Part shown: positions 3,093 through 31,845 of the stretch, in pieces
Layout: each line of letters begins with the position of its first letter
Numbering within the stretch: position 1 is the stretch's first letter
From: a virus
Reading direction: 5' to 3' (one strand)
DNA: 31,927 bases
Virus record (IMG/VR): IMGVR_UViG_3300048837_000063
Location: 1 to 31,927 of that record
Notes under the pieces: generated by a model
Seen by the model: the letters and a program-made list of their open reading frames with translations, nothing else
Told to the model about the DNA's origin: nothing
Database searches by the model: none
Made by a program: the position numbers and the translations under genes

Positions 3093-3199
3093 TGACAATA
3101 CTTAGATTGCCAGTGTTGAAGTAAGTGATGTCACCAGTTTTGCCTTAGTTTACAACCATTTACTTATCTCTGACAATACTTGACAATACTTACAATACT
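3093..3199 (+). repeat. TGACAATACT direct repeats upstream of the helicase
   Basis: TGACAATACT occurs at 3093-3102, 3171-3180 and 3181-3190, with a fourth degenerate copy (TACAATACT) at 3191-3199. The last three are head to tail with a 10-bp period, one helical turn, as expected for a protein binding cooperatively on one DNA face. A related 11-mer AAGTGATGTCA (reverse complement TGACATCACTT) lies at 3123-3133. Both fit TGACAnnACTT. Operator or iteron function is inference. Confidence 0.7.
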
Positions 3200-3231
3200 A
3201 AAACCCTAGCGGGGTGATACGGCAAAAGGCT

Positions 3232-3252
3232 GGCACCTTGGGCACAGGTGCC
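3232..3252 (-). other. Hairpin downstream of the endolysin gene, possible terminator
   Basis: A 7-bp perfect stem (GGCACCT / AGGTGCC) with a 7-nt loop lies about 80 nt beyond the endolysin stop. It sits inside a wider 11-bp inverted repeat, AAAGGCTGGCA at 3225-3235 and TGCCAGCCTTT at 3286-3296. Read leftward, the outer arm is followed by TTTTGCC, a short U tract. It could terminate late transcripts before the helicase promoter. The U tract is weak, so this is only a candidate. Confidence 0.35.
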
Positions 3253-3265
3253 GCCAGTAGCGCAA

Positions 3266-3328
3266 GTGATGTCATGGACACAATCTGCCAGCCTTTACAA
3301 TGGGTTGACTTTTTGTCCATGACATCAC
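3266..3328. promoter_or_regulatory. 15-bp perfect inverted repeat, operator-like
   Basis: GTGATGTCATGGACA at 3266-3280 is repeated in inverse orientation at 3314-3328, with 33 bp between the arms. Each arm contains a copy of the TGACATCAC motif. The repeat straddles the TTTACAATGGGTTGA block. It could be a looped operator or a cruciform-prone site. Confidence 0.6.
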
Positions 3329-3340
3329 CTGACATCACTT
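3294..3340 (-). promoter_or_regulatory. 47-bp shared control element, copy 1 (reads towards the helicase)
   Basis: On the minus strand the element begins AAGTGATGTCAGGT and ends TCAACCCATTGTAAA with 18 bp between. The same two ends with the same 18-bp spacing occur on the plus strand at 31799-31845; the spacers differ. Its right edge overlaps the last bases of the endolysin gene. Orientation is towards the helicase operon. The identical ends and spacing indicate constrained function such as an early promoter or a regulator site. Confidence 0.65.
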
Positions 3341-4147
3341 TGCCAGCTTCTTGACCACCACGAAGGCCACCACGAGGGCAGCGATAATTCCGATAGCCGC
3401 CGCTGCGTATTGAAGAGGACCATCAGGAAGCGCAGAAGCAGAGGCGATTGCACCGGGAACGACACCGCCACCGATCTTCGCAAGGTTGTCCATATTGATA
3501 GACTCGGCTGCGCGAACGGTGACTTTCGTATCCTCCTCCTCGGCCTTGCCGGGTGCTGCCATCTTGGGTGCTGCCATGTCCGTCTTGCCCTCGAACAACC
3601 ACACACTGCGATCAATCACGCCGTTGTCTTTTCCTGCCTGCACCCCTTCGACGATGTCGCCCATCACGCGCCGGGTCCAGCCCTTGCCGAACGTGGAGAA
3701 CGTGGACAGGGTCTTCATCCAATTCCAGCGTTTGAGGCACAAGGCTTCGATCAGACCCTGAATGTCATTCTTCCGCGAAATGGCACCCAAAGTGACGTTG
3801 CCCATCACGCCGTCCTGCGAGACGCCCAAGAGGGACTGAAGGAACTTGACGGCTTTCGCGACACCGGAGTTGATGGCGAAATCATACATCGCATAGTCGA
3901 GGCCAGCAGGCAGGGCATCGCCAAACACGCGATCCCAATACTGCTCTTTGTAGATTTGCCAGACCTCGGCATTGGTGATCTCTTTCACCGAACGACGCGG
4001 CAGGTCCATGCGATCACGGAAGCCGTCATAGGTGCGCTGGATCACACCTTTGTTCGTGGCTCCGCCGGGGTCTTTCGGATGATTGACATAGCCACCCTCA
4101 TGAACCAGAACCCACGTCGTGCATTGATCGAAGTTCGCCGCAGTCAT
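3335..4147 (-). CDS. Endolysin, GH108 muramidase with C-terminal membrane segment
   Basis: 270 residues. The N-terminus has the glycoside hydrolase 108 signature HEGGYVNHPKDPGGATN (residues 16-32), with Glu17 in the catalytic position, followed by the family's peptidoglycan-binding part (SGVAKAVKFLQSLLGVSQDG). The enzyme cleaves the glycan strands of murein. After a Lys/Glu-rich linker (about 190-215), residues 244-265 form a hydrophobic membrane segment followed by Lys residues (VVVKKLAK). Most GH108 endolysins end near residue 180, so the linker and anchor are additions; they could hold the enzyme at the inner membrane until lysis. The ATG has an AAGGAGT ribosome-binding site. It is the last gene of the late module. 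Confidence 0.88.
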   Translation of the reverse strand: MTAANFDQCTTWVLVHEGGYVNHPKDPGGATNKGVIQRTYDGFRDRMDLPRRSVKEITNAEVWQIYKEQYWDRVFGDALPAGLDYAMYDFAINSGVAKAVKFLQSLLGVSQDGVMGNVTLGAISRKNDIQGLIEALCLKRWNWMKTLSTFSTFGKGWTRRVMGDIVEGVQAGKDNGVIDRSVWLFEGKTDMAAPKMAAPGKAEEEDTKVTVRAAESINMDNLAKIGGGVVPGAIASASALPDGPLQYAAAAIGIIAALVVAFVVVKKLAK

Positions 4148-4151
4148 TCTG

Positions 4152-4601
4152 TCACTCCTTTTCTGAAGTTATTTCGTTCTTGGACTCGAGCCACAGCCGA
4201 AGCCTCTTGGGATAGAAGACGGCGGTGAAAATCGAATATTGCCCCGGTGCCTTATCATCGACAATGATCCAGTAGCCTTTCAGCTTGAACCACACGCCGA
4301 TGATAATAAGAATATTGAAGAACCAGTTGATGTGACTGCCAGTGATACCATAGTCCTCTTTCCAGCTGACATCAAGAACGTCAGGCAGAATGTCCCAGTA
4401 GAACATTCGCATCATTTGGAAAAGCGCCATCATCCAGATGCCGGTCCCGATGAAATCGATGGGTGCTTCACGCGGACGACGGACATACCGACGAAACCCA
4501 AAGATGAGCAGTGCCAGCATTCCGATGGCGATGAAACCAGTGACGTTGGTCATCCAGTCCCAGATGGTGGCCTTGTGAAGCCAGTCAGTGATTACGTTCA
4601 T
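4152..4601 (-). CDS. Multi-pass membrane protein of the lysis cassette
   Basis: 149 residues with three hydrophobic segments: about 19-40 (VTGFIAIGMLALLIFGF), 52-70 (GTGIWMMALFQMMRMFYW) and 90-112 (INWFFNILIIIGVWFKLKGYW). The C-terminus is charged and cytoplasmic-looking. The start overlaps the preceding gene by 17 bp and the stop is 4 bp before the endolysin start, so it is tightly coupled to lysis genes. By position it is a holin or holin-accessory candidate; I do not recognise a named family. Confidence 0.75.
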   Translation of the reverse strand: MNVITDWLHKATIWDWMTNVTGFIAIGMLALLIFGFRRYVRRPREAPIDFIGTGIWMMALFQMMRMFYWDILPDVLDVSWKEDYGITGSHINWFFNILIIIGVWFKLKGYWIIVDDKAPGQYSIFTAVFYPKRLRLWLESKNEITSEKE

Positions 4602-4770
4602 CGCTCTTGCCGTCCTCGATTACTTGTTTCAGTGCGAGCGATAGCTGCTCACGGATTGCCTCTCGTTGTGCAGCCAGACGATCCAGATGCCTCGAGGCTT
4701 GATCGAATTTCTCATCTGCCACTTTTCTGGTAGCCGTGACTGCTTTTGAGGTGAGACCGAAAATCTGCAT
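4585..4770 (-). CDS. Small coiled-coil protein of the lysis cassette
   Basis: 61 residues from the ATG at 4770, which has GGAGGT 7-8 nt upstream; an in-frame TTG further upstream lacks such a site. The sequence is charged and helical (RKVADEKFDQASRHLDRLAAQ, then REQLSLALKQVIEDGK), with no membrane segment. It overlaps the reading frame of the following membrane protein and lies one base after the preceding gene. It may regulate or accompany the holin. Not assigned to a family. Confidence 0.7.
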   Translation of the reverse strand: MQIFGLTSKAVTATRKVADEKFDQASRHLDRLAAQREAIREQLSLALKQVIEDGKSDERNH

Positions 4771-4771
4771 C

Positions 4772-4996
4772 TTACTTACCTCCAAGAGCCCTGACCAAGA
4801 TGGTGAGCTCAGTCAGGATTTTGGTAGTCTCGATTTCACGGTCCGATGCACGATCTATCAGCTCGTTGATCCTGACATCACGAGACTCAATGATCTTGTC
4901 TTTTTGATTGTTTTGATAGATAAGGTATAGCGCCCAGACACCGAGGACGCCGTAACCTGCCAGAACACTTCCGATAGAATCGAGAAATGCTTCCAT
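4772..4996 (-). CDS. Small single-span membrane protein, holin candidate
   Basis: 74 residues from the ATG at 4996, with GGAGGTTG 5-7 nt upstream. A single hydrophobic segment lies at about residues 9-28 (GSVLAGYGVLGVWALYLIYQ) and is followed by a charged helical region (NNQKDKIIESRDVRINELID). One membrane span plus a charged cytoplasmic coil is typical of class III-like holins and of holin partners. The position between the spanins and the endolysin supports a lysis role. Which of the membrane proteins here forms the lethal hole cannot be told from sequence. Confidence 0.72.
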   Translation of the reverse strand: MEAFLDSIGSVLAGYGVLGVWALYLIYQNNQKDKIIESRDVRINELIDRASDREIETTKILTELTILVRALGGK

Positions 4997-4998
4997 TT

Positions 4999-5271
4999 TC
5001 AACCTCCCGTGATTTTCTTGTCACGAGAGGCGTAGAAGTCTTTCAGCGCCTGTTGCCTCTCAGCACATGTGACCAGACTACCTCGATCACGAAGCCAGAA
5101 GCGTTCAACCTCGGATTGTGACAGTTCCCTGTCAGGCAGCAGAACAGGACGGGCGCATGGCTCCGTGAGCGATACAGGTGCAGGAGCCAGCTTGGGCGGC
5201 TCAACGGACCCGATTGAGTCTGCGCACCCCGTCAACAGAGACAGCGGGACGAGCAGCGTTCGGATCGGCAT
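4999..5271 (-). CDS. o-spanin (Rz1-like outer membrane lipoprotein)
   Basis: 90 residues from the ATG at 5271. The N-terminus is a short lipoprotein signal (MPIRTLLVPLSLLTGC) with lipobox LLTGC, Cys16 being the predicted lipidated residue. A Pro-rich stretch follows (PPKLAPAP), typical of Rz1 proteins. An upstream in-frame ATG at 5313 would put 14 extra residues before the signal and is less likely. The first 71 bp overlap the i-spanin gene in a different frame, the classic nested Rz/Rz1 arrangement. The pair bridges inner and outer membranes to disrupt the outer membrane at the last step of lysis. Confidence 0.82.
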   Translation of the reverse strand: MPIRTLLVPLSLLTGCADSIGSVEPPKLAPAPVSLTEPCARPVLLPDRELSQSEVERFWLRDRGSLVTCAERQQALKDFYASRDKKITGG

Positions 5272-5542
5272 CTGCACCAGCTTCAAGATCTGCAATGGTA
5301 GCATTTCGTTCACGCAGTAGCCGGTTCAATTCTGCCTCACGTTTACGAGCTTCCTCTAAGGCATCTTCATTCGCCTTGGTCAGCCGTTCGCGTTCGTTCT
5401 GGATTGCGGTTTCATATTTCAGGGTGGTGACAGCAACTCCATGGTTGTAGCCATTCCACCAGATATAGAATTCTGCTCCCACGAGCAGGACCACGATAAG
5501 GATATAAGGCAAATAGCGCCTAAAGACAACCCCAAGTAGCAT
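5201..5542 (-). CDS. i-spanin (Rz-like inner membrane protein)
   Basis: 113 residues from the ATG at 5542, which has an excellent ribosome-binding site (AAGGAGGTAG). An N-terminal transmembrane segment lies at about residues 9-28 (RYLPYILIVVLLVGAEFYIW). A long charged coiled coil follows (ETAIQNERERLTKANEDALE, then EARKREAELNRLLRERNATI), as in Rz proteins that span the periplasm. The 3' end overlaps the o-spanin gene. It is the first gene of the lysis cassette, placed after a GC-rich gap and a promoter-like sequence overlapping the end of the tail tip gene. Confidence 0.85.
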   Translation of the reverse strand: MLLGVVFRRYLPYILIVVLLVGAEFYIWWNGYNHGVAVTTLKYETAIQNERERLTKANEDALEEARKREAELNRLLRERNATIADLEAGADADPNAARPAVSVDGVRRLNRVR

Positions 5543-5607
5543 GTGACTACCTCCTTGCGAGCTCTGTGGACGTGCTGGTGCCGGGGGCATGGGCTACAGC
5601 CCACCCA

Positions 5608-5631
5608 GCGCGGCCACAGGCGCGGCCACAG
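5608..5631. repeat. Tandem 12-bp repeat in a GC-rich intergenic segment
   Basis: GCGCGGCCACAG occurs twice head to tail (5608-5619, 5620-5631). It lies in the 177-bp gap (5543-5719) between the tail tip gene and the lysis cassette. The gap is much richer in G and C than either neighbour and also contains a TGGGCT/AGCCCA hairpin at 5590-5603 and the 10-mer GGGCAGGGGC at 5638-5647. No gene is supported in the gap. Confidence 0.6.
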
Positions 5632-5709
5632 GGCACCGGGCAGGGGCAGGGCGCTACCCTACCACCCGCCAGCCTGCCACGGCGTTCCTGGACGTCCGTA
5701 GAGGTCGTA

Positions 5710-5738
5710 ACCATACGCATCAGGACCTCGAATACCAA
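5710..5738 (-). promoter_or_regulatory. Possible sigma70-like promoter for the lysis cassette
   Basis: On the minus strand TTGGTA (5733-5738) and TATGGT (5710-5715) are separated by 17 bp, matching four of six bases in each consensus box. It overlaps the last codons of the tail tip gene and would give a leader of about 160 nt before the i-spanin start. The match is moderate. Confidence 0.35.
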
Positions 5739-8700
5739 GGCTGTGGTGTAAAGGAAGAGTCAGAGTTATATCTCCCGACTCCTTTTGTGATGCGAATTTC
5801 GTCAAGCAGCCCGCGCCACATATCGTTCACACCAGCTTGGTTTCCGCCAACCCTAACAGCAGTTGTCCCTCCAACATTCACAGAACCGTATGACGTATTT
5901 TTCAGCTCCATCACGCCGTTAACAAAAATTCTGAGAGTTGACCCATTCCTTGATATAGCGAAGTGGAAGCTATTATTGTTCAAATCTGTTGTTGTTGTTA
6001 GCGCAGGTCCGCCTTGAACAACAAACACCAATCTATTGGAAGCGTCATTGGTCAAAAACACAGACCAAGACCCGGTATTAGAGTTTATGAAATTGCCGAT
6101 AATAGAGTGATACCAAGTTGCATGATTGAAGTTAGATTTAGCCCAACCCTCGATAGTAAAATCTCCAGTTCCGAATTGAAAATCTGCAGAGAAAGCAGCT
6201 TGACAGTAGCCAGTGCTCTCGTTTGCTTGGTTAATCGCAAGAGAAGAAGTATTTGCCAAAGCTCCCGTCGTTTCAATTGCACATGCCCCTGAAAGGGTCA
6301 AAGCCCTCCCCACTGGGCTTTCATCAAGAACAGCAGTTGATCCGTCGGCACCTTCAGCACCAACTAGCAATACGACGTTAGCGATGTATGGATCAGCAGG
6401 AGGAACATAAATCTGATTCAAATCTATCGGATAGATCGCAAGATAGACAGCGTCTTTTGTCGCATCATTATCAATAGCTTTGATCCTGATTTCGGCATCA
6501 AGATTATTTATCGACGTCAGGTTAAATGGAATAACATACGAAGTCACACCAACTCCGACGCTGCCAGAAAGAGTTGTGTTTCTAACGCCAGAAATGTAAA
6601 CGTCAATATCATATTTCTCGTTCCATGGTGGAACTTGATCAGAGGAATTTTCAAGAAAAACAGAAACAGAGTTCGGATTTGAGCGGGACCAAGAAAGAGT
6701 TCTCGAAGCCACAGTATCGATCATATGATCATATTGACGAATTCCATCAAGTTTCAAATTCCTTGGTCGAAGAGGCTTGTTGTTATGATAGGTAGATGCG
6801 CCGACATAAGCAACGGGGGTCACTTCATCAGGCGACTGTTTCACACCACCTGCTCCATCAAGGAAGCGATGGTTATAGGTTTGTCCATCAGGGAAGATGT
6901 TGATAGCGCCGGAGTTGAATGCACCGGTCGGCACAGAATAGACACGAGCGCCGATGCTGTGATCTTCAATCGGACTGCCGAACAGTCCGCGATAGACATT
7001 GGTCAGGGTCCAGTTTCCACTGCCGCCGTCGACTGCGGTTTCGAAAGCCATAAACTCGTTGTTTACGAGAATGATGTTCTCGTAGCCGTTGATAACATCA
7101 CTTGCGGTTACAGTATTGAAAGAGCCAACGACCGAGGTCAACGAGATACCAACAGTCGTATCTTTTCCAGACACGAAACCATTGCTTCTTGGATAAGCGA
7201 TGGACAGCAGACCAGAGCCTTCGTAGATGACGTCCTTAGGATCATCAGACGTATCAGCCAGAGCCTCTCCAGGAAGCTGAACGTTCACGGAATAGGTCGT
7301 CGAGACCCCACTGGGCTTCGCTGCAACTGGCAAAAGACCGACTCTCTCAGAAGTGATGGGGTTCTCCAACTTGTTGGTGAAGAACCTCGGCATCTGAACC
7401 AGACGATACGTGATGATATCGGACGGAGTGAGAGTGACAGGAACCCACCCACTGCTTTGCGGAGAACTGAACACGACATCACTCAGAGCAAACTTGTCCT
7501 GAAGAGCTTCGATGACGATCTTGCCCTTGGTCAGTTCACCAAGATCAAAACGCTGCACCCGCATGACCAGATCAACGATGCCATAGTCAGCCCAAGAGAA
7601 CTTGAAAGGCGATCCAGGACGCAGAGTGTTCGCGTTCCGGTTGACTTCGATCGTGGCGCGGAACAGCGGAACCGACCTTTGGGCTCTCTCACGAGATGCA
7701 ATCTCATTCGCAGTATCAGGATCATAGCAGAACGGGAAGCTGAGCGTGGTAGTGCGGAGCTTACCCAGAGTGGCGACAACTGCCATGTCCTGGGAGATTG
7801 CGACAGCTTCACTTTCACTATCGCGTTGCGGGAAGGACACTTTCACTTGCGATTGAACTTCGTCCCACGACGTGCGGGTGAAGCTGCGAACGACAGCGAT
7901 ATCGTTCTCATCGAATTCAGGGATCAGATCGATATCATAGTCATCGCGGATCAAGCTGATCGTGACTTTGCCACTGTCAGGATCCTGATACATGATGCCA
8001 TCGATCTGGCGCAGAATTTCGCTGATCAGACGAGCACCATCAGACTCCGAGGTAACGAGAATGGATACACCATTCTGTTCTTCCCAGAGGACCTGACCAA
8101 CAGTCTGCAGAGCCACCAGATCAATATCAGAAACAGCGATACCGAGACCTCTCCAAGTATCGACCATGATCTGATAGATTGCCTCAGCCGGGTTCATATC
8201 GACACCGGAGTTGATGGTTCCGTTGTCAGGCAGGCCGAGAGAGTTCGTGTAGCACTCCAGAACGAATGCCATCTTGCGAAGAGAAGCACTCTCTCCGATG
8301 TAGGCGTGTTCGAAGACCATGTGAGCCATGCCATTATAGGCAGGGACGTTCCCCGAGCCGACTTGGCCTTCAACATAGGTATTGACATTCTGCGTGAAGC
8401 TGCCGCTGTAGAACTTGCCGGTGCTTCCCCAGCCACCGCCGTTCTTGTAGCCACCAAACAGATCGCTTGCGCTGATGTTGATAACGGTCTCTGTTCCGCC
8501 AGTCGTATCGCCGGACCATGCAAGAGTCTCATCGATATAGACTTCACGCAGAACGACACCCGGTCCGAGCGCAAGGCCCATATCAAGGCCGAGGTAATAC
8601 TTGTGACCGACGGTCACCCTTTTCGAGCTGAACAAGCCAGTCTTGACTTTCTCCGTGATGGCGACCGCTTCGAAGTCTCCATACCACAGAGTGTTCGGTG

Positions 8701-8872: not shown

Positions 8873-9672
8873 ATCTTACCCGTGAAAGGATTGCGTCCAG
8901 GGACGAGTGGGGTGCCGCCAAAGCGTGGACCATTGGCGAATTTCACCTTACACGTATCGAAGTCATGTGCGCAACCCCTAAGAATTTCGACAGGGTTTCC
9001 GATCTCTAGCTTCGAGAACGGATAGCTCACAGTGATATCAGTTGCAGTGACATTGGTGATCATTCTGCTCTCACCAGATGATACCAGTCTGATCATACCA
9101 GCGAGAATATCGGCAGGTCCGTAGGGATTGCTTCCAACACTGACAATATTGTTGGAGAACCCGGTGACGGTGGTGGAGTGCTTGTTCGCTGCTTCAGAGA
9201 CACCGCAACGAGCATCGTAGAGCAGATGGTTGCACGGCCCCTGATAGCGAGGCGTAGGAGCAGAGCCAGCCATGATATAGCCGAAGATGGCAGGCACCCT
9301 GATCTTTGCCAACTGCCCTTCAACCGTGAAAGAGGTGACGCGACCTTTCCACAGGAGAACAGTGTCATTGAGATCAGTTGCGTGGACACGGAAAATTTCG
9401 CAAACGAGAGTTGGCGGAGCCTGATCGTAGGCATATTCACGAACCATAGGATGCGTGAACGGCATACTGATTTCGAGGGCCAGTTGGTCCTCCTCTTGGG
9501 TCCCCACCTTGAGTGCATCACGACTGATCGTGATGGGAGAATATGTTTCACCATTCACAACGAGAGTGGTAGAAAAACTCGTCATACGATAGGTGTTGTA
9601 GGTTCCAGTGAAGCGATACACTTCTCTGGGACGTCCACCCTGAATACTCGTTTCATCAGTTTGATATGCCAT
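8869..9672 (-). CDS. Minor tail protein of the DUF2163/BR0599 type (gpL-like position)
   Basis: 267 residues from the ATG at 9672, which overlaps the upstream stop (TGATG). The C-terminus has the BR0599-type ending GCAHDFDTCKVKF, then GPRFGGTPLVPGRNPF. Four cysteines are placed as two pairs, Cys147/Cys156 (GPCNHLLYDARCGV) and Cys234/Cys241. The lambda counterpart gpL carries an iron-sulfur cluster on four cysteines; a metal site here is inferred by analogy. The N-terminal half is beta-rich (TYSPITISRDALKVG and onwards). It lies directly before the hub protein, as gpL-like proteins do, and probably forms part of the tail tip ring. Confidence 0.78.
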   Translation of the reverse strand: MAYQTDETSIQGGRPREVYRFTGTYNTYRMTSFSTTLVVNGETYSPITISRDALKVGTQEEDQLALEISMPFTHPMVREYAYDQAPPTLVCEIFRVHATDLNDTVLLWKGRVTSFTVEGQLAKIRVPAIFGYIMAGSAPTPRYQGPCNHLLYDARCGVSEAANKHSTTVTGFSNNIVSVGSNPYGPADILAGMIRLVSSGESRMITNVTATDITVSYPFSKLEIGNPVEILRGCAHDFDTCKVKFANGPRFGGTPLVPGRNPFTGKI

Positions 9673-13951: not shown

Positions 13952-16900
13952 TTACCGAGACCCAGCGATCTGCCTTACAGTCGAGGCATTTCGCTGGAGA
14001 ATATTGATGATCTGCGTGTCGCCACCATTGTTGAACACGCCGATGATATCGTCCGGACTGAGCACAGCCGCCACATTGACCGGAGGAGACTGAACGACAG
14101 TCGTTCCGCCACCATTCCCCTGACCGTCCTTCTGGGCTTGCTGCTGACCCGGCGTGAGTATGTCTACACGCTCATCAGGCCTCTTGGCAAATGCAACCAG
14201 TTGCGAATCGGTCGACCCTGGACCTGTTGGAAGGATGGAGCCGCCAGTCGCAAAGTGAAGTCCGCCACCAGCACCACCAAGACCAGCGCCAGGAATGCCC
14301 AAGAAGCCACCGAGGAAGGACAGAAGGAGACGCTGCGCTGCCAGCTTGAGAAGCTGAGCGAATAGGTCAGCAAAGAACTGACGAATGTTCAGCCGACCGG
14401 TCTTGGCGAACTCAACGATCGCATCGGCGGCCTTGCCAGCCGCGTCGACCAGCACTCCACCAAGAGCCTCACCGAATTGGCTTGCAGACTGGATGCTTCC
14501 AGCAATCGCAGCCCGGAACCCACCACCAATAGTTCCAGAGGCTTTGTCTGCGTTGATTTGCAGTTCGCGGAGTTTGTCGTTGTATTGTCCGAGCGAGATT
14601 GCGCCCTGCTCGAACAGTTGGTTCAGAGCGATCTGTCCGAGCTTCAACTGCTCCTGAGGACCGAGAATGTCCTGGAGGGTCTCACCTTGGATTTTCGCAA
14701 TCTCCAACAGAGCGGTCTGAGTAGCGACCTGCTCTTTCTCTGCGTCAGTCAGCTCGCGCTTGATGGACTTCTCAATGCTGAGAATATTGTTGGTGATCTC
14801 TTTCTGAAGACCGTATTGCTTTTCGAGCTCGATCTTCTTTTGAAGTTCGGCGATCTCCTGAGCGAACGATTTCTCGTTCTTACCACCGCCTCCACCCCCG
14901 CCTCCGCTTCCGGTGCCGGTGCCAGTTCCACCAGCGAGCGGACCAAGTTGACCGGGTGCAGGTTGATTTGCGATGTTCTCACGGGCACGATCAATGATCT
15001 TCTGCCCAACAGGGGCAAGAGCATTGGCGAGACCGTCGATCACGTTCGCGACTTTGCCGCCTTCGTAGATTTCATTGAAGCCATTGACGAATGCGTCGCC
15101 AGCCGCTTTGCCAGCATCGGCAGCAGCACCTTTGAAGCGAGGCAGCGTGACTTCGCTGAGTTCAGTGATCTGTCCTTTGATGCCAAAGAACTCAGCGGCT
15201 TTGTCAGCACCGACAAAGGCCAGCAGAGCGTTCAACGCACCGATCACCTTGTTGATTGCAGCGATTGCTCCATTGGCGAATGCCTCGAAGCCTTCGATAA
15301 GGACGTTGGCGATCCCTTGAGCTACAGCAGCCGCCTGACCGGGCAGAGCTTGGAATGCAGCGATGATGCCGTTCACCACGCCAATCACAACGCGAGGAAC
15401 GAAGGTGAACGCATCGATCATTGCCTCAGCAGCACTGAGGATTGCATCACCCATGATTGCAGCGCCAGCGACAATCGCGTCGCGGGCATAATCGAGACCC
15501 TTGACAATATATTCCCAGGCAGTGCTGAAGAACGGAGAGATTGCTTCCCACATAAGCTGGAAAGCTGCGATCACAGCATCTTTCAGACCGACAACACCGT
15601 CAGCAGTGACTTTGATCTCATTGCCCCAAGTGAAGAACGCCGCCACGAGGGCACCGACGGCCACCACGATAGCGGTGATGGGGTTGGCAAGGAGCAGCGC
15701 CCACAGTCCAGAGAGGGCACTGCCAGCCAGCCTGATGACACCCGTGAGCAGCGGGAAGGAGCCAGCCAGCCGCGCCACCATACCAGTCTGAGCAACCTGA
15801 GCCGTGGCGAGGCGGGTGGTCGCAGCCGCTTGGGCATTCTCAGCCAGCGCAAGCTCACCACGCAGAGCAGTGACACGACCAGCAGCAATCGCTTCTGCAC
15901 GTTCAGCAGCAGTCAGACGGATGGTCGCAGCCGTGAGCCTGTCACGAGCGGCTTCGTTGGCAATGAACCGACCAGTCTGAAGATCACGAGCACGACCATT
16001 CTGGAACGACGCAGTTGCCTCTGCGTATTCAGCCTGAGCATTGGCAAGAGTTGTTCTGATCGCAGTCTGGCGAACCAGAATGTTCTCCAGTTTCGCGCGG
16101 GTGTCGATCGCAGTAGCTTCAGCAGCAGCGACAGACGACCTTGCACTGGCGGTCTGGATAGAGAAGTATCGTGCGACTGCTTCACCAGACTTGGTCAGCG
16201 TATTCGCGAACTCTAAGGCACTGTTGATCGCTCGCGCAGAGAACACTGCGACAGCCACCCCGGCGAGAACGCCCAAGAGGTTCACCAACGTTCCGATGTG
16301 TTCGGAAAGAGTGATGATCGCTCTTGCGAACAGAGCACTCGCACCAGTGGCATCATCGAAGTCGTCAATGAACTTCAAGATGTTGTTTCGTGCGACGTTG
16401 AACGCCTGCTCGATTGTCGGGTTCGTTTGGGCGAACAGAGCGTCCACCTGTTGCTGAGAGTTCTTGATCGCGTCGAACACGATCTGCGCAGTCAGCTTCC
16501 CTTCCTTGCCGAGTTGACGGAGTTCACCACGACTGACCTTGCCGAACTGGCCGGTCTTGTTCAGATAGTCCACAATGAGGTCGGAGACGTAAGGCAGTTG
16601 TTCCAGAACAGAACGAAGTTCGTCGCCGCTCAGGCGGTTCGAGGCGAGGCCCTGCCCAAGCTGGATCAGGGCAGCGTTGGCTTCTCGAGCAGACGCACCG
16701 GAGATAACAGCAGCTTTCTGGAGCGTCTCGGTGACGCTGATCACATCTTGCTGGCTCACCCCGAGGTTCCTTGCAGACAGGGCGACGCGGGTGTAGATTT
16801 CGCCAGTCGCTTCAACCGCAGAGCGGGAACGATTGGCAGAAGCGAACAGAGCGTCTTGAACTGCCTCGAGATTTTGAGTGCTCGAGGAAGTCAGACGGAG

Positions 16901-24719: not shown

Positions 24720-24763
24720 GGGCACAGCGGCGGTCGGCTACCACACCCCGCCCCTGCCCTGCC

Positions 24764-24792: not shown

Positions 24793-24795
24793 GGC

Positions 24796-25632: not shown

Positions 25633-25689
25633 ATCCGTCTCCTATCTGCACCGAGATCACCTCGGTTTTGTTATGTCCACAGCGCGGAC

Positions 25690-27228
25690 TTACTTGGGCG
25701 TTCTCCCAGAGGGATTGGTCGTCTGTCCCTTGGGTTTCCCACCGCCCGTGTCTCCCCCATTGGGATTGTTCGGGTCGTTGGGCTGGACGGGGGCTTGACT
25801 TCCCGTCGCAGGCTTCGAAAAGACGAAGTTCTCGTCCTTCTGTTCTTTCTCGGCTTCCTTGAGCTCTTCATCGAAGGTCTTGGTCGTGAGCCGCCGCTTG
25901 CGGGACAGGTCGTGCATCGATTTCGCACTGATCGGCCAGCCAAGGTTGCGAGCCGTTGCGATTTCGACCATCGTCTGGCCGGTGAGCGGCATTTCGCCGA
26001 ATTCTTTGTTCGGAAGGACCTTCACGTCGTCCGGGTTCTCGCCCATCCATTTCGCACAGGTCTTCAGGACCTGTTCGAGACCGGCAGCGCCCGTATCGGC
26101 GATCTGGTTCATGTCCGCAGTTCGTGCAGCGACCCGAATGCGAAGGCTGTCTCCGCTTTCACGCTGTCTGGACGTGCTGTCCAGCGTTTGAGCGCCCATT
26201 GATCCGGCTCGAGATTCGAGCCGTTCCAGTGCCTGACGCTGTTCGCTCAGGCCGCTGCCATTTACGCCGACGTATTTCGCATCACCGCCTTGAGGCACAT
26301 CAATTCGAGCACCGACGCCAGTTCGCACCGCATCAGTTTCATCGAAGCCGCCGCCAATGGTGACGAAAGTATCTTGACCCTGCATGAACAGGTTCTGGCG
26401 ATAGTCTGCCTCACCGCGATAGATCGTCATGCAGGCATTGCCGAGATCGAGCAGGGGAGGATCGTCCACTTCCGGCGTGATATCGCAGGAATTGATGAAG
26501 ACGAAAGGAATTTCCTGAAGTTCGCGGCCACGCCACGTCGGAATCTTGAGACCACCCTCGCTGTATTCGCTCTCTGCGAACACACCTTGGCGGTATTGTC
26601 CGGAAGGGACGTTCTCGTCGGTCTTGCCCAGAACAAGGACGCGATACTTCGTGTCGAGGCTCCAGTTGAAGCCATCGCTGCGCTTCTGCTCGCTCTCGTT
26701 GATCACAACGAGGTTCAGCTTCTGCGGAACAAGCTGCTCGACCCGACCATCGTCCCAGTTGATCAGTCGTTCGGTGTTGTAGGTCGCCAGATACGGCAAG
26801 TCCTCACCGAGGGCTGGGTTTGTCGGCATATCGGCCATCAGACCGATGCGACCAGTCAGCAACTGCTCGGTGTTGATGCGACGCAGGATCACTTGCAGAG
26901 GCTCGCCCATGCGAGAGGTGATCTTCTCCATTGCTTTGGGCAGCTTGATCTCGGCTGGCTGCGAGTGCATCATGCCGATTGCCATCTGAACCGCTTCCCG
27001 GACGAAATTCGGGAAACGAGCACGAAGTTTGTAGGCCTCGTAAGCCTTGAAACCGATCGAGGTCGTGCTGGTGATCGCACCATCAGCCACTTGCGAACTC
27101 GTGAAGGGCAGATAGGTCGTGTTTTTCGACTTGACCTGCCTCTCACCCTTATACGCATCGCGCATGAGGGTCCAGTCCGGTGAAACCAGAGCGTAGGACG
27201 GGTGCTGGGACGAAAGATTGGTGTTCAT
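25690..27228 (-). CDS. Portal protein (DUF4055 type)
   Basis: 512 residues from the ATG at 27228; a TTG three codons upstream is possible. HPSYALVSPDWTLMRDAYKG, GERQVKSKNTTYLPF and MIGMM-like helix region match the DUF4055 group of portal proteins. The middle has IPFVFINSCDITPEVDDPPL and LGNACMTIYRGEADYRQNLF. The C-terminus is a Pro/Asn/Gly-rich tail (NDPNNPNGGDTGGGKPKG). The portal is the dodecameric packaging channel at one capsid vertex. It follows terL by 46 bp. Confidence 0.85.
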   Translation of the reverse strand: MNTNLSSQHPSYALVSPDWTLMRDAYKGERQVKSKNTTYLPFTSSQVADGAITSTTSIGFKAYEAYKLRARFPNFVREAVQMAIGMMHSQPAEIKLPKAMEKITSRMGEPLQVILRRINTEQLLTGRIGLMADMPTNPALGEDLPYLATYNTERLINWDDGRVEQLVPQKLNLVVINESEQKRSDGFNWSLDTKYRVLVLGKTDENVPSGQYRQGVFAESEYSEGGLKIPTWRGRELQEIPFVFINSCDITPEVDDPPLLDLGNACMTIYRGEADYRQNLFMQGQDTFVTIGGGFDETDAVRTGVGARIDVPQGGDAKYVGVNGSGLSEQRQALERLESRAGSMGAQTLDSTSRQRESGDSLRIRVAARTADMNQIADTGAAGLEQVLKTCAKWMGENPDDVKVLPNKEFGEMPLTGQTMVEIATARNLGWPISAKSMHDLSRKRRLTTKTFDEELKEAEKEQKDENFVFSKPATGSQAPVQPNDPNNPNGGDTGGGKPKGQTTNPSGRTPK

Positions 27229-27274
27229 GGCGGTCAAGCTACTCTAGCGCCTGCCTCTTGGCAAGCGGTTTGTT

Positions 27275-28783
27275 TCAATAATGTCCTGTCGTCACACCAG
27301 AAGAACCCGGCGAACCCACCCAGCGAACCAGATATCGGGTTTCGTCAGCGATGTGGTCCTCGGCATCCGTGTTGATATCGTCCATGTCCTTCTCATCACG
27401 AGGAAGGACCGGAATTGTCTCAATGAATGCCTTGCAGGTATCGAAAACGAACAGTCCAGGCTTCTCACGAGGATAAAGTCGCTTCTCTCCATTCACTTCT
27501 TTGATGTTCGGCCATGCGTTTTTCATCTTCTGACGCATTTGGGTCCAACCTGTGGCCCGCGAACCGGGTCTCTTGTCAGCCGGGTTCCACATGATGCCTG
27601 GATATTTGAAGCCATCGTCCAATCGAATACGAACTTTCATATCCGTAGCGATGCAGTTACCGTTCTCAGCAGCGAAAATCTGACTGTCAGCGACACCAGC
27701 CTTCACTCGGCACCAGTTTTCACCCCGGCGACGCCAGCCCCACTCCAGTTCTCTCTTCACAATACCTTCCGAGATGTCGGAGGCGAGCAGGTCCAGTCCC
27801 TCATTGGGCTTCCCAGTGGAGCCATACCACTCACGAACGCGAAATACATCGCCGCGAACCGTCGATCGCCAGAGGTTCTGCCCAAGAGAGACGTCACTGC
27901 CATCCGAAATCGCCCACCAGCCGACGGAGAACGGCTTGGAAGCGCCCCAGTCGAAGCTCCGAACGATCTTCCACGACTCGGGGATCTCAAACGATGAGAG
28001 CAGATTGAACTTCGGGTTCCACACATCGTCAAACATGCCCCCGGAGACGATGTCCCACGAACCCTCGAGCCACGCTTTCTTCTCCGCCTCGTTCCGCGCA
28101 GCAGCAGCGATACGATCGATGTAGTCCGGATCGCTCTCGAGCAGAGCTTTGTTCTCGTTGATGTGGCTGTGAATGCTGAGACGAGGAGGTTCCTTGCGTC
28201 CCTCCTCGTCTACAAGGTCCCGACGCACGATCATGTTCATCGTGTTCGGCTTGTAGCGATGCTTCACCCAGTTGTGACCGGGGCCATACGGGTTCGTCGT
28301 GGCACGAACCATACGAGGCATTCCTTTTGTCGAAGATCGACAACAGGAAAACATTCGCTTGTAGCCTTCGTCGGTCGCCCAGTTGCAGAGTTCCTCCCAG
28401 CCGATCCACGGATATTCGTGGCCGTGATAGTTCCAGTAGTCGTCAGGCTTGGCGAATTGACGCAGCAGCAGGCTCTCTCCGCTCGGCCACGTCCACACAT
28501 GCTCCGAGTGGTTGAACTTCGCCTCCGGCCAAATCTGCGGGATCCATTTCTTCGTCTTGGTGATGACGTCCGTAAGCTGCTTGTAGGTCTGCCGAAACAG
28601 AATGCCTTTCCAGGCAGCGCCGAAACCCTTTCCAACGTGCATACAGAACGACATGAGCAGACTGTCCGTCTTCCCGCCACCTCGCGTCCCTTGAAACAAC
28701 ACTTCGAAGATAGGCGTCGCACTCAGGAACGCTTCCTGACTGCCTGCCATCGGTTTCCAGATTACGTTATCGGGATATTTCAT
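27275..28783 (-). CDS. terL: Terminase large subunit
   Basis: 502 residues. The ATPase has Walker A GTRGGGKT (32-39) and a Walker B-like YPWIGWEE (124-131), followed by a motif III-like ATTNP (161-165). The nuclease has FDWG (Asp278), VADS (Asp366) and the late acidic cluster DAEDHIADETRY (about 473-484). It drives DNA into the prohead and cuts concatemers. The ATG has only a weak ribosome-binding site. The gene is separated from terS by more than 2 kb of small and unusual genes rather than lying next to it. Confidence 0.93.
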   Translation of the reverse strand: MKYPDNVIWKPMAGSQEAFLSATPIFEVLFQGTRGGGKTDSLLMSFCMHVGKGFGAAWKGILFRQTYKQLTDVITKTKKWIPQIWPEAKFNHSEHVWTWPSGESLLLRQFAKPDDYWNYHGHEYPWIGWEELCNWATDEGYKRMFSCCRSSTKGMPRMVRATTNPYGPGHNWVKHRYKPNTMNMIVRRDLVDEEGRKEPPRLSIHSHINENKALLESDPDYIDRIAAAARNEAEKKAWLEGSWDIVSGGMFDDVWNPKFNLLSSFEIPESWKIVRSFDWGASKPFSVGWWAISDGSDVSLGQNLWRSTVRGDVFRVREWYGSTGKPNEGLDLLASDISEGIVKRELEWGWRRRGENWCRVKAGVADSQIFAAENGNCIATDMKVRIRLDDGFKYPGIMWNPADKRPGSRATGWTQMRQKMKNAWPNIKEVNGEKRLYPREKPGLFVFDTCKAFIETIPVLPRDEKDMDDINTDAEDHIADETRYLVRWVGSPGSSGVTTGHY

Positions 28784-28851
28784 GCCGTCGAGGGTCCCAA
28801 ATAGCGCCTGCGCGTGGCAGAACTCACCAAAAGATCAAGGGGTGTCTTTGG

Positions 28852-29073
28852 TCACTGTAGCTGGGACTTGTCGCAAGTGCAACACTCAAATTCCGGCGAA
28901 CCTTCATGGATCGCCATGTAGTCCCAGTCCGGGCAGAGATGCACCTTTGTTCTCTTGCTCAGCAGCAACTCCTCGTGATCGAAGTTTTCTGACGAGTTCA
29001 CGGGAAGAGAGAGGGACCGCGCCATTTCTGATGGCTTGGTCCCTCTTCCCTTTCGAGATGTCGAAGTGCTCAT
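28852..29073 (-). CDS. Small Cys-containing protein, overlapping the broken DUF4031 gene
   Basis: 73 codons from the ATG at 29073, which overlaps the stop of the truncated DUF4031 frame (ATGA) and has AAGAAGGA 9 nt upstream. The C-terminal part LCPDWDYMAIHEGSPEFECC (then TC) resembles small phage proteins with a CPDWD...CTC ending and could bind a metal. The N-terminal part (MSTSTSRKGRGTKP...) is read in a different frame over DNA that encodes DUF4031 residues, so the native start may be further downstream at a non-ATG codon. Function unknown. Confidence 0.5.
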   Translation of the reverse strand: MSTSTSRKGRGTKPSEMARSLSLPVNSSENFDHEELLLSKRTKVHLCPDWDYMAIHEGSPEFECCTCDKSQLQ

Positions 29074-29180
29074 AGAGCGTGTCCTTCTTCTGTATCCATT
29101 TCCTCTCGGGTGTCAGCGACCATATGGCACATTATCATCCTACGGTATGGATGAACAGCTTGGTCCACGTAGACTGTCAT
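28904..29180 (-). pseudogene. DUF4031 gene disrupted by a small deletion and frameshift
   Basis: From the ATG at 29180 (AGGGGGGAT upstream) the translation starts MTVYVDQAVHPYRRMIM, the hallmark of DUF4031, but stops after 36 codons at 29070. The +1 frame then continues the family: RKWIQKKDTLYEHFDIS, GKRDQAIRNGAVPLSSRELV and RKLRSRG, down to a stop at 28904-28906. The expected linking segment of about ten residues (LHxxAxRIGV-like) is missing. The simplest reading is a deletion of roughly 30 nt, not a multiple of three, at about 29100-29107, where the junction reads GAGAGGAAATGG. The biological role of DUF4031 is unknown. Confidence 0.75.
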
Positions 29181-29330
29181 TGTCACGATCCCCCCTTGGT
29201 CTCTGGTTTCTTTTCTAATTTTGGATGTTGATATGCTAATAGCGATCTGAATGAGTTCCAGGTAGGTCCGCTCGAGGCCGGGCTGGGTGGCCGGGTCGGG
29301 TCGGCGCGCCCTTGGGGTGGGGTGGGGGTG

Positions 29331-29353
29331 GGCCTGCCGCAGCGCAGCAGGCC
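29331..29353. other. GC-rich hairpin between the broken DUF4031 gene and a small membrane protein gene
   Basis: GGCCTGC (29331-29337) pairs with GCAGGCC (29347-29353) around a 9-nt loop. It lies 22 bp beyond the stop of the 29376 gene, reading leftward, inside a very G-rich gap (29181-29375). There is no U tract, so termination is only possible, not shown. Otherwise I see nothing in that gap. Confidence 0.45.
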
Positions 29354-29375
29354 GAGCGCCGCAGCGCAGCACGGG

Positions 29376-29564
29376 TCAGGGCATGGCGTGGGTCAGGACC
29401 TCGCCGATGTGGGCCACAACGGGGACCAACATCTCATAGGCCAGCGCCACCGAGCCGATGGCAAGGGCCACCTGCAAGGCCACGAGGCCGAGGGCAGGGG
29501 CGGCACAGGAGCGGGCGTAGGAGCGGCGGGTGGTGTGGCGGGTGGGGTGGTAGCGGTAGGGCAT
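29376..29564 (-). CDS. Small membrane protein in a GC-rich cassette
   Basis: 62 residues. A basic N-terminus (MPYRYHPTRHTTRRSYARS) precedes a hydrophobic helix at about 24-48 (LGLVALQVALAIGSVALAYE) and a short mostly apolar end. The ATG has AGAGG about 9 nt upstream. It follows the 29641-30027 gene in the same direction, with a strong hairpin between them, and both have base composition far above the window average. Alternative longer readings in the same frame would be Pro/Thr-rich and look non-coding. Function unknown. Confidence 0.5.
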   Translation of the reverse strand: MPYRYHPTRHTTRRSYARSCAAPALGLVALQVALAIGSVALAYEMLVPVVAHIGEVLTHAMP

Positions 29565-29610
29565 GGCGTGGGCCTCTGTGGCACCCCTGAGGGGCGTGGG
29601 TGGTGGGGGT

Positions 29611-29633
29611 GGGCGGGGGTGGTGCCCCCGCCC
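29611..29633. other. Very stable GC-only hairpin after the 29641-30027 gene
   Basis: GGGCGGGGG (29611-29619) pairs with CCCCCGCCC (29625-29633) around a 5-nt loop, starting 8 bp after the stop codon. There is no following U tract. It may protect the 3' end of the upstream transcript or reduce readthrough to the 29376 gene. Confidence 0.6.
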
Positions 29634-29640
29634 GGTGGGC

Positions 29641-30027
29641 TTACTTGCTGACCGGCACGAGCCACGCCTGCTTGGCGTTGGCGAACCAGTTGGCGTGGGA
29701 GTGGGCCGCGCCGTTGGGCTTGGCTTCGGTGCCCCAGCCGGTGGACGGCTGCTTGTAGGTGGACCCCGCCGCGTTGGCCGCAAGGGCGGCGGCGAACTGG
29801 GCGGCGGTGAACCCGCCCTTGTGCTGCTCGGCCAGCTTCTTGGCGACCGTGTAGCAGTAGGCGCGGATGCTGTTGCCCGTCTGGGCCTTGACCGGCCACC
29901 CCTGCTTGGTCGCCGGGTCGTAGCTGCGCAGCAGGTAGGTAGGCGCGGCGGGGGCGGCGGCGAGGGCGGCGACCGGCGCGGTTTTCTTGGCGACGGTGGC
30001 GACGGGGGCGGTTTTGGTGGTAGCCAT
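29641..30027 (-). CDS. Small Ala-rich protein with a histone-H1-like N-terminal tail
   Basis: 128 residues from the ATG at 30027, with AGAAGGAAG upstream. The first 30 residues are Ala, Lys, Pro, Thr and Val only (TTKTAPVATVAKKTAPVAAL), like the basic tails of histone-like proteins. The rest is a compact globular domain (YLLRSYDPATKQGWPVKAQT, then AYCYTVAKKLAEQHKGGFTA) with many aromatic residues. The GC content is much higher than in the terminase genes. A good promoter lies about 50 bp upstream and stable hairpins follow, so it is an autonomous unit between terS and terL. I do not recognise the family; DNA binding is a guess from the tail. Confidence 0.75.
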   Translation of the reverse strand: MATTKTAPVATVAKKTAPVAALAAAPAAPTYLLRSYDPATKQGWPVKAQTGNSIRAYCYTVAKKLAEQHKGGFTAAQFAAALAANAAGSTYKQPSTGWGTEAKPNGAAHSHANWFANAKQAWLVPVSK

Positions 30028-30078
30028 TTGGAACTTCCTTCTTGGGTTGGTAGGCAGCACCGCGCTGCCTATGACCTA

Positions 30079-30107
30079 CATATACGCCCACCCCGCACCG
30101 ACTGCAA
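30079..30107 (-). promoter_or_regulatory. Sigma70-like promoter for the 29641-30027 gene
   Basis: On the minus strand TTGCAG (30102-30107) and TATATG (30079-30084) are separated by exactly 17 bp, five of six and four to five of six matches. The start codon lies 52 bp downstream of the -10 box. The arrangement resembles the 24764 promoter; both read GGGCGTATAT or GGGGCGTATAT around the -10 box. Confidence 0.6.
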
Positions 30108-30337
30108 GCCCTAATTGCGACCGGAAGATAAAAAGTTTGTTGCCTGTTTGCGAACGGCGGGGGCGAGCGCGACTAGCCGAAGAATGTGGCGAGAATAAGG
30201 CGGAAGAAGATTTTGAGGAGTGTTGCACGAACGACACGATTTCACGATTGTGGCAAGATTGTGGCAGGATCATGGCGGACGAAGAAGAAGATGAGGACCG
30301 ATCGAGGGAGGACCGCGTCTTCTTCTTCCTCTTCGAG

Positions 30338-30398
30338 TTAAGTCACTCGGTCGATTGGCGTCTTCTTCATCGTCGTCGGATTAAGTCACTCGGTCGAT
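30338..30398. repeat. 18-bp direct repeat in a non-coding stretch
   Basis: TTAAGTCACTCGGTCGAT occurs at 30338-30355 and 30381-30398, 43 bp apart. It lies in the 30108-30467 gap, which has no supported gene and is otherwise filled with purine-rich GAAGAAGATGAGGA-like strings on alternating strands. The repeat could be a regulator site or a scar of recombination. Confidence 0.75.
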
Positions 30399-30467
30399 GG
30401 ACGAATTTGAAGATGTCGGTCGAGGAAGAAGATCGGAAGATGATGAGGAGGGATGCCCAAAGAAAGA

Positions 30468-30501
30468 GCAGGCGGTCCTCGGGTCGGGAAGGACCGCCTG
30501 C
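30468..30501 (-). terminator. Rho-independent terminator after the 30516-30752 gene
   Basis: A 12-bp perfect stem (GCAGGCGGTCCT, 30468-30479, with AGGACCGCCTGC, 30490-30501) has a 10-nt loop. Read leftward it is followed by TCTTTCTTT. It starts 15 bp beyond the stop codon of the 30516-30752 gene and is the clearest intrinsic terminator in the window. Confidence 0.82.
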
Positions 30502-30515
30502 CGTCGGCGCTCTGC

Positions 30516-30752
30516 TTAGACCGTGAGTGGTGACTGAGCGCCGACGATGCTGTTGCGCGGATGCTTGTTCGGGGTGAAGGAGGCGCCGACCGCGACACCG
30601 GGGCGGCAGACGTGGATCACACCGTTGTCACGCGAGTAGGCGGCGGTGAGCATGGCGACCTCGGCGCGGAGCGAGGCCTTGTCGTCGGCCAGCTTGCCGG
30701 TGAACACCGAGCGACCAGCCGCGTGGGAGAGGGTCAGGGACTTGCGGATCAT
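30516..30752 (-). CDS. Small protein of unknown function with its own terminator
   Basis: 78 residues from the ATG at 30752, with AAAGG about 8 nt upstream; an ATG ten codons earlier is also possible. The sequence (MIRKSLTLSHAAGRSVFTGK, then ADDKASLRAEVAMLTAAYSR) is globular, mildly basic, with no membrane segment or known motif. It ends in a strong intrinsic terminator and begins 250 bp after terS, so it is expressed as a separate unit, like a moron. I do not recognise it. Confidence 0.7.
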   Translation of the reverse strand: MIRKSLTLSHAAGRSVFTGKLADDKASLRAEVAMLTAAYSRDNGVIHVCRPGVAVGASFTPNKHPRNSIVGAQSPLTV

Positions 30753-30926
30753 GGGACTTGCCTTTCTGTTCTTGGGCACCATTGCCCTACCATCACACTA
30801 CCACGGGGAGTTTGCGAATTACAGTCATATTTGTCTTCCGCAGACTTTTATCTGGACATCTTATCTCTCCATCCGCATCTTCATCTTCTTTATCCTCCCA
30901 TCCCATCTCGTCATCCTCCTATCCGA

Positions 30927-31021
30927 GGAAGAAGATGAGGATTATATAGAAGAGCATCAGATGAGGACCATCGGATAGATCGTATCGGTCAATTTGTATC
31001 GGTCAATCCTCATCCTCTTCC
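30927..31021. repeat. 17-bp near-perfect inverted repeat linking the end of terS to downstream DNA
   Basis: The last codons of terS (31005-31021) are repeated in inverse orientation at 30927-30943 with one mismatch, which in RNA is a G-U pair. The loop is 61 nt. The 30753-31002 gap otherwise carries low-complexity pyrimidine-rich sequence and no supported gene. Confidence 0.7.
30982..31007 (-). promoter_or_regulatory. Direct repeat with promoter-like spacing at the end of terS
   Basis: GTATCGGTCAAT occurs at 30982-30993 and 30996-31007, a 14-bp period. On the minus strand each copy supplies TTGACC, and the first is followed after 16 bp by TACGAT. This could be a promoter for the 30516-30752 gene or a regulator site. 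The promoter match is moderate. Confidence 0.35.
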
Positions 31022-31671
31022 GGAGGCCGCATGAGTTCGTGGACGACCTCCGCTTCGGGAGTGACGTCCTTCGCTTTGTTGAAGCGGCTCTCCCAGTCTT
31101 CAATGGAGCCCATCTCCGCAGGAGCGACCAGAACACCGCCGGAATGGTTGACAGCGATCTCCTGCTTCTCTCTGTAGCCGCTATCATGCTTTTTGAGCTC
31201 CAGCTCAATAAGCCTGATAGGGAATATCTGCTCCTTGGAGACAATGTTCCCGTTGCGATCGTAGCTCACCTTCTCGGTGCCGTTGAAGACGAGGTCCTGA
31301 TGGTGAGAGATGAGCTTCTCGGTGTATTCCTTCTCACACTCGAGGAAGGCGGTAGCGAAGTCTTCATCATCCTCCATGTGACGACGGACGGTTGCGGTGG
31401 TGATCCCGACCTTCGCCGCAGCTTCACCGATCCGGCCCCATTTCCGATATTCGTCGAGGAAGACTCCCTTCGCTTTATCGTCGAATTTTATCCGCTCCAT
31501 CTTTATCCTCGATCTCCAGTTTCCATCCTCATCCTGATATTCGACAAGAACAGGTTTGGAGCCTCGGCAGAGGAGAGAGCGAGGGCGTTTCGCGAGCCGG
31601 AAGGCGCGGTCATAGTCGTCCGCTGGGTCTCGTCCGAAGTCGCGGGTTTCTTCATTGTCGTCAGTCGGCAT
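31003..31671 (-). CDS. terS: Terminase small subunit
   Basis: 222 residues. A helix-turn-helix lies at about 79-100 (GRIGEAAAKVGITTATVRRH), followed by DDEDFATAFLECEKEY, the usual DNA-recognition and oligomerisation layout of phage small terminases. The C-terminus is very acidic (RPPEEDED). It recognises the packaging site on concatemeric DNA and stimulates terL. The ATG has AGGTG upstream. It is the first gene of the leftward late module but is split from terL by about 2.2 kb. Assignment is from the HTH, length and position. Confidence 0.75.
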   Translation of the reverse strand: MPTDDNEETRDFGRDPADDYDRAFRLAKRPRSLLCRGSKPVLVEYQDEDGNWRSRIKMERIKFDDKAKGVFLDEYRKWGRIGEAAAKVGITTATVRRHMEDDEDFATAFLECEKEYTEKLISHHQDLVFNGTEKVSYDRNGNIVSKEQIFPIRLIELELKKHDSGYREKQEIAVNHSGGVLVAPAEMGSIEDWESRFNKAKDVTPEAEVVHELMRPPEEDED

Positions 31672-31777
31672 TCGTCACCTGTGTTCGTTCGAAGATGAAA
31701 CAGAAGAGATCTCCCGCTTAAGAGGTATATCACAGCCCAAGGAGGCAGAGCAACCACCTATCATCCCGACTAGCTTT

Positions 31778-31809
31778 AAGTGATGTCACTGGTCAGTCAA
31801 GTGATGTCA
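31778..31809 (+). repeat. Two AAGTGATGTCA repeats upstream of terS
   Basis: AAGTGATGTCA is at 31778-31788 and 31799-31809, 21 bp apart, two helical turns. The same 11-mer and its reverse complement recur at 3123-3133, 3264-3274 and 3330-3340. The 31672-31927 gap has no supported complete gene and is AT-rich near its right end. Confidence 0.8.
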
Positions 31810-31845
31810 GGTCAACCATCTGATTACCCCTCAACCCATTGTAAA
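31799..31845 (+). promoter_or_regulatory. 47-bp shared control element, copy 2 (reads rightward)
   Basis: The element starts AAGTGATGTCAGGT and ends TCAACCCATTGTAAA with 18 bp between, identical in both ends and spacing to the minus-strand copy at 3294-3340. Directly after it lies TATACT (31847-31852), a possible -10 box. It points to the rightward gene expected beyond the window. Confidence 0.65.

Follow-up and report, generated by a model that had tools for sequence, protein, structure and literature searches.

Paired, helically phased repeat elements at the starts of the early and late gene blocks of a YuA-like phage, and their possible role as origin-plus-promoter elements

The virus record IMGVR_UViG_3300048837_000063, analysed here over its entire length of 31,927 bases (the window), is a fragment of a YuA-like phage of ~62 kb. 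It carries two similarly built intergenic elements, one upstream of a helicase gene (element H) and the other upstream of the gene for the terminase small subunit, terS (element T). According to PHROG searches, the minus-strand genes run from terS through the terminase large subunit (TerL), portal, scaffold, tail genes and spanins to the endolysin, and then to the helicase. The terS gene (31003-31671, minus; phrog_4044, E=2e-21) opens the late block and the endolysin gene (3335-4147, minus; phrog_315, E=6.5e-52) closes it, while the helicase gene (1578-3054, minus; phrog_62, E=8e-90), of SNF2 type according to its nearest annotated matches, is the first gene of the early block. The helicase most likely starts at ATG 3054 rather than at TTG 3098, because 3098-3071 holds a predicted promoter and the ATG has a ribosome-binding site upstream of it; TTG 3098 lies upstream of the predicted -10 box. 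TerL is 55-58% identical to its best isolate matches (YuA-like phages and their kin), the helicase shares at most 47% identity with any isolate, and no isolate phage showed DNA similarity to the left region of the window. No known RNA or tRNA was found within the window.

Two contigs from one sample (G001 and G002) encode a helicase and a TerL 99% identical to those of the window, and their overlaps of 216 and 127 bp join them into a circle of 62,053 bp, a composite that represents a near-identical relative. An exact 15-mer scan of viral contigs returned 83 stretches, one of them from this relative and most of the others presumably due to chance, and was set aside. The conserved genes of the composite all lie on the minus strand, with the sole exception of gene X, which begins to the right of terS, at a distance of ~400 bp, and runs rightward; the remaining plus-strand entries either overlie minus-strand genes that are conserved or are weakly supported, by a single genome. 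The genome therefore consists of two co-directional blocks, a late one from terS to the endolysin and an early one from the helicase onwards, and each is headed by one of the two elements. An earlier note on this DNA, made from its letters alone, had described one control element bracketing the late module; the element does stand at both ends of that module, and its position can be refined to the heads of the early and late blocks. The rightward gene presumed in that note exists in the near-identical relative: it is X, the only conserved gene on the opposite strand.

The two regions share a 47-bp block, AAGTGATGTCAGGT-N18-TCAACCCATTGTAAA. As had been reported, exactly two copies occur in the window, one forming an arm of H with R boxes and a C box (3294-3340, minus) and one forming an arm of T (31799-31845, plus), and no third was found in the window even with three mismatches allowed (shuffle expectation 0.00). 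The description of both blocks as intergenic needs one correction, since copy 1 overlaps the endolysin stop codon. The R box, TGACANNACTT (TGACAnnACTT), has eight exact copies in the window against 0.17+/-0.38 expected. All of them fall within 3093-3340 and 31778-31809, i.e. in the two intergenic regions, as the earlier note had seen, and none is scattered inside genes; a near copy, TGACATCACCT at 3320, can be added.

Element H (3055-3334) extends from the endolysin stop to the helicase ATG at the head of the early block. Its C box, ACAATGGGTT (3297-3306, plus), recurs in relatives as ACAAnRGGTT. Its R boxes comprise TGACAATACTT (3093-3103, plus), the complement of which gives the predicted helicase promoter its -35 hexamer, TTGTCA; TGACATCACTT at 3123-3133 (minus) and again at 3264-3274 (minus); two tandem boxes with a 10-bp period, TGACAATACTTGACAATACTT, followed by a degenerate third unit, TACAATACT (3171-3191, plus); and, at distances of 13 and 23 bp from the C box, two tandem boxes, TGACATCACCTGACATCACTT (3320-3340, plus). 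The least stable 60-mer of H (3144-3203) is the second least stable of the window and ranks second in the genome of the near-identical relative, and is a candidate unwinding region; in relatives a matching 9-10-bp tandem array lies beside the AT tract. Judging from its sequence, a hairpin in the middle of H, GGCACCT..AGGTGCC (3232-3252), may terminate the late block; the terminator scan made no call there. Element T (31672-31927), at the head of the late block, is truncated by the contig end, and its full version in a relative (L145/G002) measures ~400 bp. It contains a C box ACAATGGGTT (31833-31842, minus) and R boxes 44 bp (31778-31788, minus) and 23 bp (31799-31809, minus) from it. The least stable 60-mer of T (31838-31897), likewise a candidate unwinding region, is the least stable of the entire window and ranks first in the genome of the near-identical relative.

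For comparison we used 17 genomes, namely 13 near-complete relatives and the isolates YuA, MW2, PaMx11 and Simon. Conservation in related phages, which the earlier note had proposed as a check, was found: each of the 17 has two elements, one upstream of the helicase and one upstream of terS, and a region built like H is present in all of them. The elements of the relatives all contain an AT-rich stretch and short repeats, which for the most part follow the pattern AGTnnnGTCA (in G015 they are GTCGAGC-like); most have tandem arrays with a 9-10-bp period on the helicase side, and the ACAAnRGGTT C box is present in most. Repeats cluster at the two elements in these genomes, with single hits only elsewhere. 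In YuA, Bordetella phage MW2 and PaMx11, every annotated gene lies on one strand, and the two block starts are the same. The H-T pair is the best-matching pair of sequence windows in YuA, MW2, PaMx11 and Simon (rank 1 of 122-229), with scores of 69, 141, 274 and 148 against 42, 35, 33 and 81, respectively, for the next-best pair. The initial 60 bp of the match are identical in MW2, and in PaMx11 the match extends over ~370 bp in inverted orientation. The earlier remark that the blocks point outward carries little meaning, as the block is one arm of a roughly symmetric element of 300-400 bp and the PaMx11 copies are oppositely oriented.

Two further phages and one additional site may be mentioned here. 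PaMx74 (L275/L276), which has another gene order, contains an inverted pair of similar intergenic regions (15893-16383 and 58228-end plus 1-274; score 67 against a background of 32) that includes the two least stable windows of its genome, and one member of the pair lies upstream of the major head gene. RDJL3 was dropped as a comparison; its gene organisation is different, and for the intergenic region of lowest stability no partner scored above background. In Simon (L265/L266), a 76-bp stretch with AGAAAAGGAGCAA that precedes another gene, at ~4250, is similar to part of the sequence preceding the helicase block.

The core of the repeat varies between phages yet tends to match between the two elements of one genome. 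The cores are ATG in G004 and G010, AGA/AAA/GAA in G005, G006, G008 and G009, AAA in G012, and ATT/GAT in G014 and the composite. Core similarity is higher within H-T pairs of the same genome than in other pairs (cosine 0.57 vs 0.13, permutation p=2e-5, 12 genomes). Repeat-type distance correlates with the distance of a double helix-turn-helix (HTH) protein described below (partial r 0.42 after removal of TerL distance) and also with that of the helicase, and no correlation was found with TerS (Mantel r 0.06) or with X. These correlations appear to point to a partner encoded in the early module, without naming which protein.

The distances from C box to R box, taken over the relatives and the window, cluster at 4-5, 13-16, 22-24, 33-34 and 44 bp. 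The Rayleigh R at a 10-bp period is 0.90 for 32 sites, which are non-independent in that tandem units themselves have a spacing of ~10 bp and close relationships exist among some of the elements. The constant 18-bp spacing emphasised in the earlier note is exact in the two blocks of the window; in the terS element of the nearest relative, however, box and repeat lie 34 bp apart as against 23 bp in the window, a change of one helical turn. Therefore, the idea of a fixed 18-bp spacer, and with it that of one two-part protein contacting both ends, is replaced by helical phasing, under which proteins bound to C and R would share one face of the helix.

Duplex stability sets the same two regions apart. 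In 14 of the 17 genomes, the two elements hold the first two ranks genome-wide for instability over 60 bp, and in the other three the terS copy ranks first and the helicase side ranks 4, 8 and 10; in G011 the helicase-side peak lies inside the element, slightly beyond the set coordinates. These genomes have GC contents of 43-64%, and the sequence of the AT stretch differs among them, from (TATC)n in MW2 and the YuA terS copy to mixed AT. Among the YuA intergenic regions longer than 60 bp, the two elements are outliers (-63.5 and -67.3 vs -76.3 for the next), and this comparison included regions with the other annotated promoters of YuA, among them those of sigma54 type (-24/-12). Each copy thus has, by computed stability, an AT-rich candidate unwinding stretch. 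A palindromic AT core was considered and dropped, as hairpin z values were mostly ~0, except in Simon and in single copies in G014 and G015. The pairing of the elements, the phage-specific cores common to both copies, the phasing, the minimal duplex stability and the position are established computationally.

Promoters are annotated or predicted at both places. The GenBank record of YuA (NC_010116), the annotation of which is our source for these data, lists measured promoters of ~1000 Miller units at 489-568 and 33014-33160, i.e. in both elements, upstream of the helicase gp02 and of terS gp50. The -35 hexamer TTAGGT of both lies inside the repeat unit CTTAGGTTACTT, and both YuA elements contain GTTTAAGGTAAGTAAGTTAAGTAAGTTAAG. 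In the window, sigma70-type hexamers give 10 of 12 consensus matches on the helicase side, where the predicted promoter TTGTCA-N16-TATACT (3071-3098, minus) has its -35 within an R box, and are weak on the terS side, where a candidate, TTGCTC-N18-TATACC (31724-31753, minus), was read from the sequence and the promoter scan made no call. CTTGGGC, in the spacer of that candidate, is found at the same place upstream of terS in relatives. This heptamer occurs at 25 places in the window, also near the -10 of promoters, against ~5 estimated from base composition; as a genome-wide promoter motif it was rejected, being not above Markov expectation and mostly located in genes.

Two proteins come into question as binders. 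A double-HTH protein is encoded in 17 of 17 genomes, its gene being flanked by that of a small helicase and that of the primase, and is gp25 in YuA, annotated as 'putative repressor' in the record. In the composite its gene is split (48313-48362, minus), as close to five consecutive G the frame changes by one base, which may be either an assembly error or a real shift; a single open frame is present in the other compared genomes. The product of X, ~212 amino acids long, is predicted to fold into a winged helix followed by long helices (predicted local distance difference test score, pLDDT, 87). Its best PDB matches include many MarR types, all non-significant (E>0.2), and the one significant match is an unnamed viral model; with no Pfam or PHROG match, it was not classed as MarR-like. 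X is present in the composite and 11 further relatives.

In our reading, which we consider an even call, the two regions are paired origin-plus-promoter elements resembling oriL and oriR of the Bacillus phage SPP1. Two copies of one cis-acting element stand at the heads of the early and late blocks of a circularly permuted siphophage genome of ~62 kb, each with an array of 9-11-bp R boxes in helical phase with a C box, beside an easily melted AT-rich stretch. We infer a binder, strand opening, replication and a switch as follows. A phage-encoded DNA-binding protein would coat the phased repeats in both copies and help to open the AT stretch, leading to theta replication at one or both copies, and the same binding would control the promoters that lie within the array. 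As this binder, the double-HTH protein beside the primase is the best candidate, and the winged-helix protein X, divergent from terS, may also bind in the nearest relatives. A second role, in transcription, would suit the embedded promoters, and the promoter, phage regulator's operator and origin iterons proposed as alternatives in the earlier note may all hold in part.

In SPP1, a single phage protein, the initiator gp38, binds both oriL and oriR (PMC6316719, PMC3485210). As in SPP1, transcription is mainly from one strand and concatemers would be packaged by a headful mechanism; at the sequence level, the present elements also share with SPP1 two similarly organised copies, direct repeats in each copy (here tandem, phased, 9-11 bp) and an AT-rich stretch in each copy. 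In contrast to SPP1, the copies here start the early and late blocks and overlap promoters, with none known inside an initiator gene, the 9-11-bp repeats are phage-specific, the candidate binders are a double-HTH or winged-helix protein, neither of which is known to be related to gp38, and the replication role is a putative one.

Several observations weigh against this reading. The family matches of the double-HTH protein are to regulator families, and no member of a known initiator family was recognised. Its co-variation with repeat type is not specific, since repeat-type distance correlates with the helicase too (0.35). X is missing from YuA, MW2, PaMx11, Simon and G015, which rules it out as a universal binder. 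Plain alignment fails to place the H-T pair first in several uncultured relatives (G004, G007, G008 and G011), because the common units are short and degenerate, and in PaMx74 one of the two elements lies away from the start of the early block. Some AT-richness is expected of long promoter-bearing intergenic regions, and inspection by eye showed no DnaA box. In 13 of 13 genomes the early and late halves differ in GC skew; fourfold degenerate sites, however, show no late excess and therefore give no replication-strand signal; GC skew was accordingly discarded as origin evidence.

A purely transcriptional role we regard as a serious possibility, although we lean against it. The repeats would then be operators of a phage regulator, either the double-HTH protein (YuA gp25) or X, that coordinates the early and late promoters, for example by switching off the early block together with its own gene while the late block is released or activated, and the AT tract would be a promoter feature. 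The promoters measured at both sites in YuA, the overlap of an R box with the -35 of the window's helicase promoter (in relatives the box abuts the -35), the regulator annotation of the HTH families of the conserved protein, and the location of X, with its predicted winged-helix fold, divergent from terS across the element are all in agreement with it. However, instability at both copies exceeds that of the other YuA intergenic regions, those with annotated sigma54-type promoters included; the copies may be inverted relative to transcription, as in PaMx11; the distance from repeat to -35 varies from 0 to ~14 bp, which is unusual for an activator; and one PaMx74 copy precedes the major head gene.

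A packaging (pac) or recombination site, with the terS-side repeats as TerS sites and the second copy as an alternative packaging start or a concatemer recombination point, seems very improbable. One copy does always lie beside terS, and circularly permuted genomes are compatible with headful packaging (PMC11946847). However, the helicase-side copy is distant from terS and repeat type does not track TerS divergence. Extreme low stability is, to our knowledge, not a feature of pac sites. We give hardly any credence to ordinary AT-rich intergenic DNA with unrelated promoters and a recent, functionless local duplication of the repeats. The elements are indeed the longest intergenic regions of YuA, and some relatives show a weak H-T alignment. 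However, genomes with strongly different element sequences retain the architecture, the phasing and the minimal stability, and the two copies of one genome keep the same repeat core.

Two other phage systems bear comparison with the paired elements. Mycobacteriophage L5 and its relatives have dispersed operators (stoperators), short asymmetric sites scattered over the genome. The repeats here are also short and asymmetric, with a sequence maybe matched to the DNA-binding protein of each phage; in contrast to L5, they are restricted to two intergenic elements, and no genome-scattered set was seen among the window's exact sites. Sphingomonas phage vB_StuS_MMDA13 has 12-bp direct repeats in a non-coding region of 1186 bp (PMC7472734). 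It is a siphophage of similar size with repeats and promoters in GC-poor non-coding DNA, but a single divergent region is described, and a paired copy or a function is not reported. The YuA promoters of NC_010116 occupy the same two positions as the elements here; the record gives promoters only, with pairing, phasing and instability unmentioned. The terms promoter, intergenic and origin of replication are all absent from a paper on Mesyanzhinovviridae evolution (PMC11946847). No description of the element pair was found in the literature searched; the YuA genome paper, which lay outside that search, might mention the similarity.

Some neighbouring genes are also of note. A homing-endonuclease-like gene (phrog_314) lies directly downstream of the helicase in the window (1105-1587, minus), and HNH-like endonuclease open reading frames, read from sequence, are located just upstream of the helicase, in or beside the H-type element, in several relatives (L087, L092, L095, L112 and L115). 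The early block encodes a DNA polymerase, a primase and a ligase, together with a thymidylate-synthase-type enzyme and a 5-hmdU DNA kinase domain. In G001 (L200:12439-16319), the latter two are accompanied by an HD-domain protein, and the combination suggests hypermodified thymine in the phage DNA.

The start of replication and the early-to-late switch of YuA-like phages are seemingly unreported in the literature searched, despite many cultured Pseudomonas relatives. The present analysis gives the exact position of two sites, a rule for their phasing and two proteins as candidates, which makes the question directly testable in YuA or PaMx11. Tentatively, we propose that the twin origin-promoter elements might couple the start of replication to early and late expression through one phased nucleoprotein array, the repeat specificity of which would diversify quickly while the two copies stay matched, with the result that related phages would not cross-read. 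If the origin-plus-promoter reading is true, the paired-origin plan of SPP1 would extend to a large group of phages of Gram-negative bacteria, where it would be physically tied to the early and late promoters.

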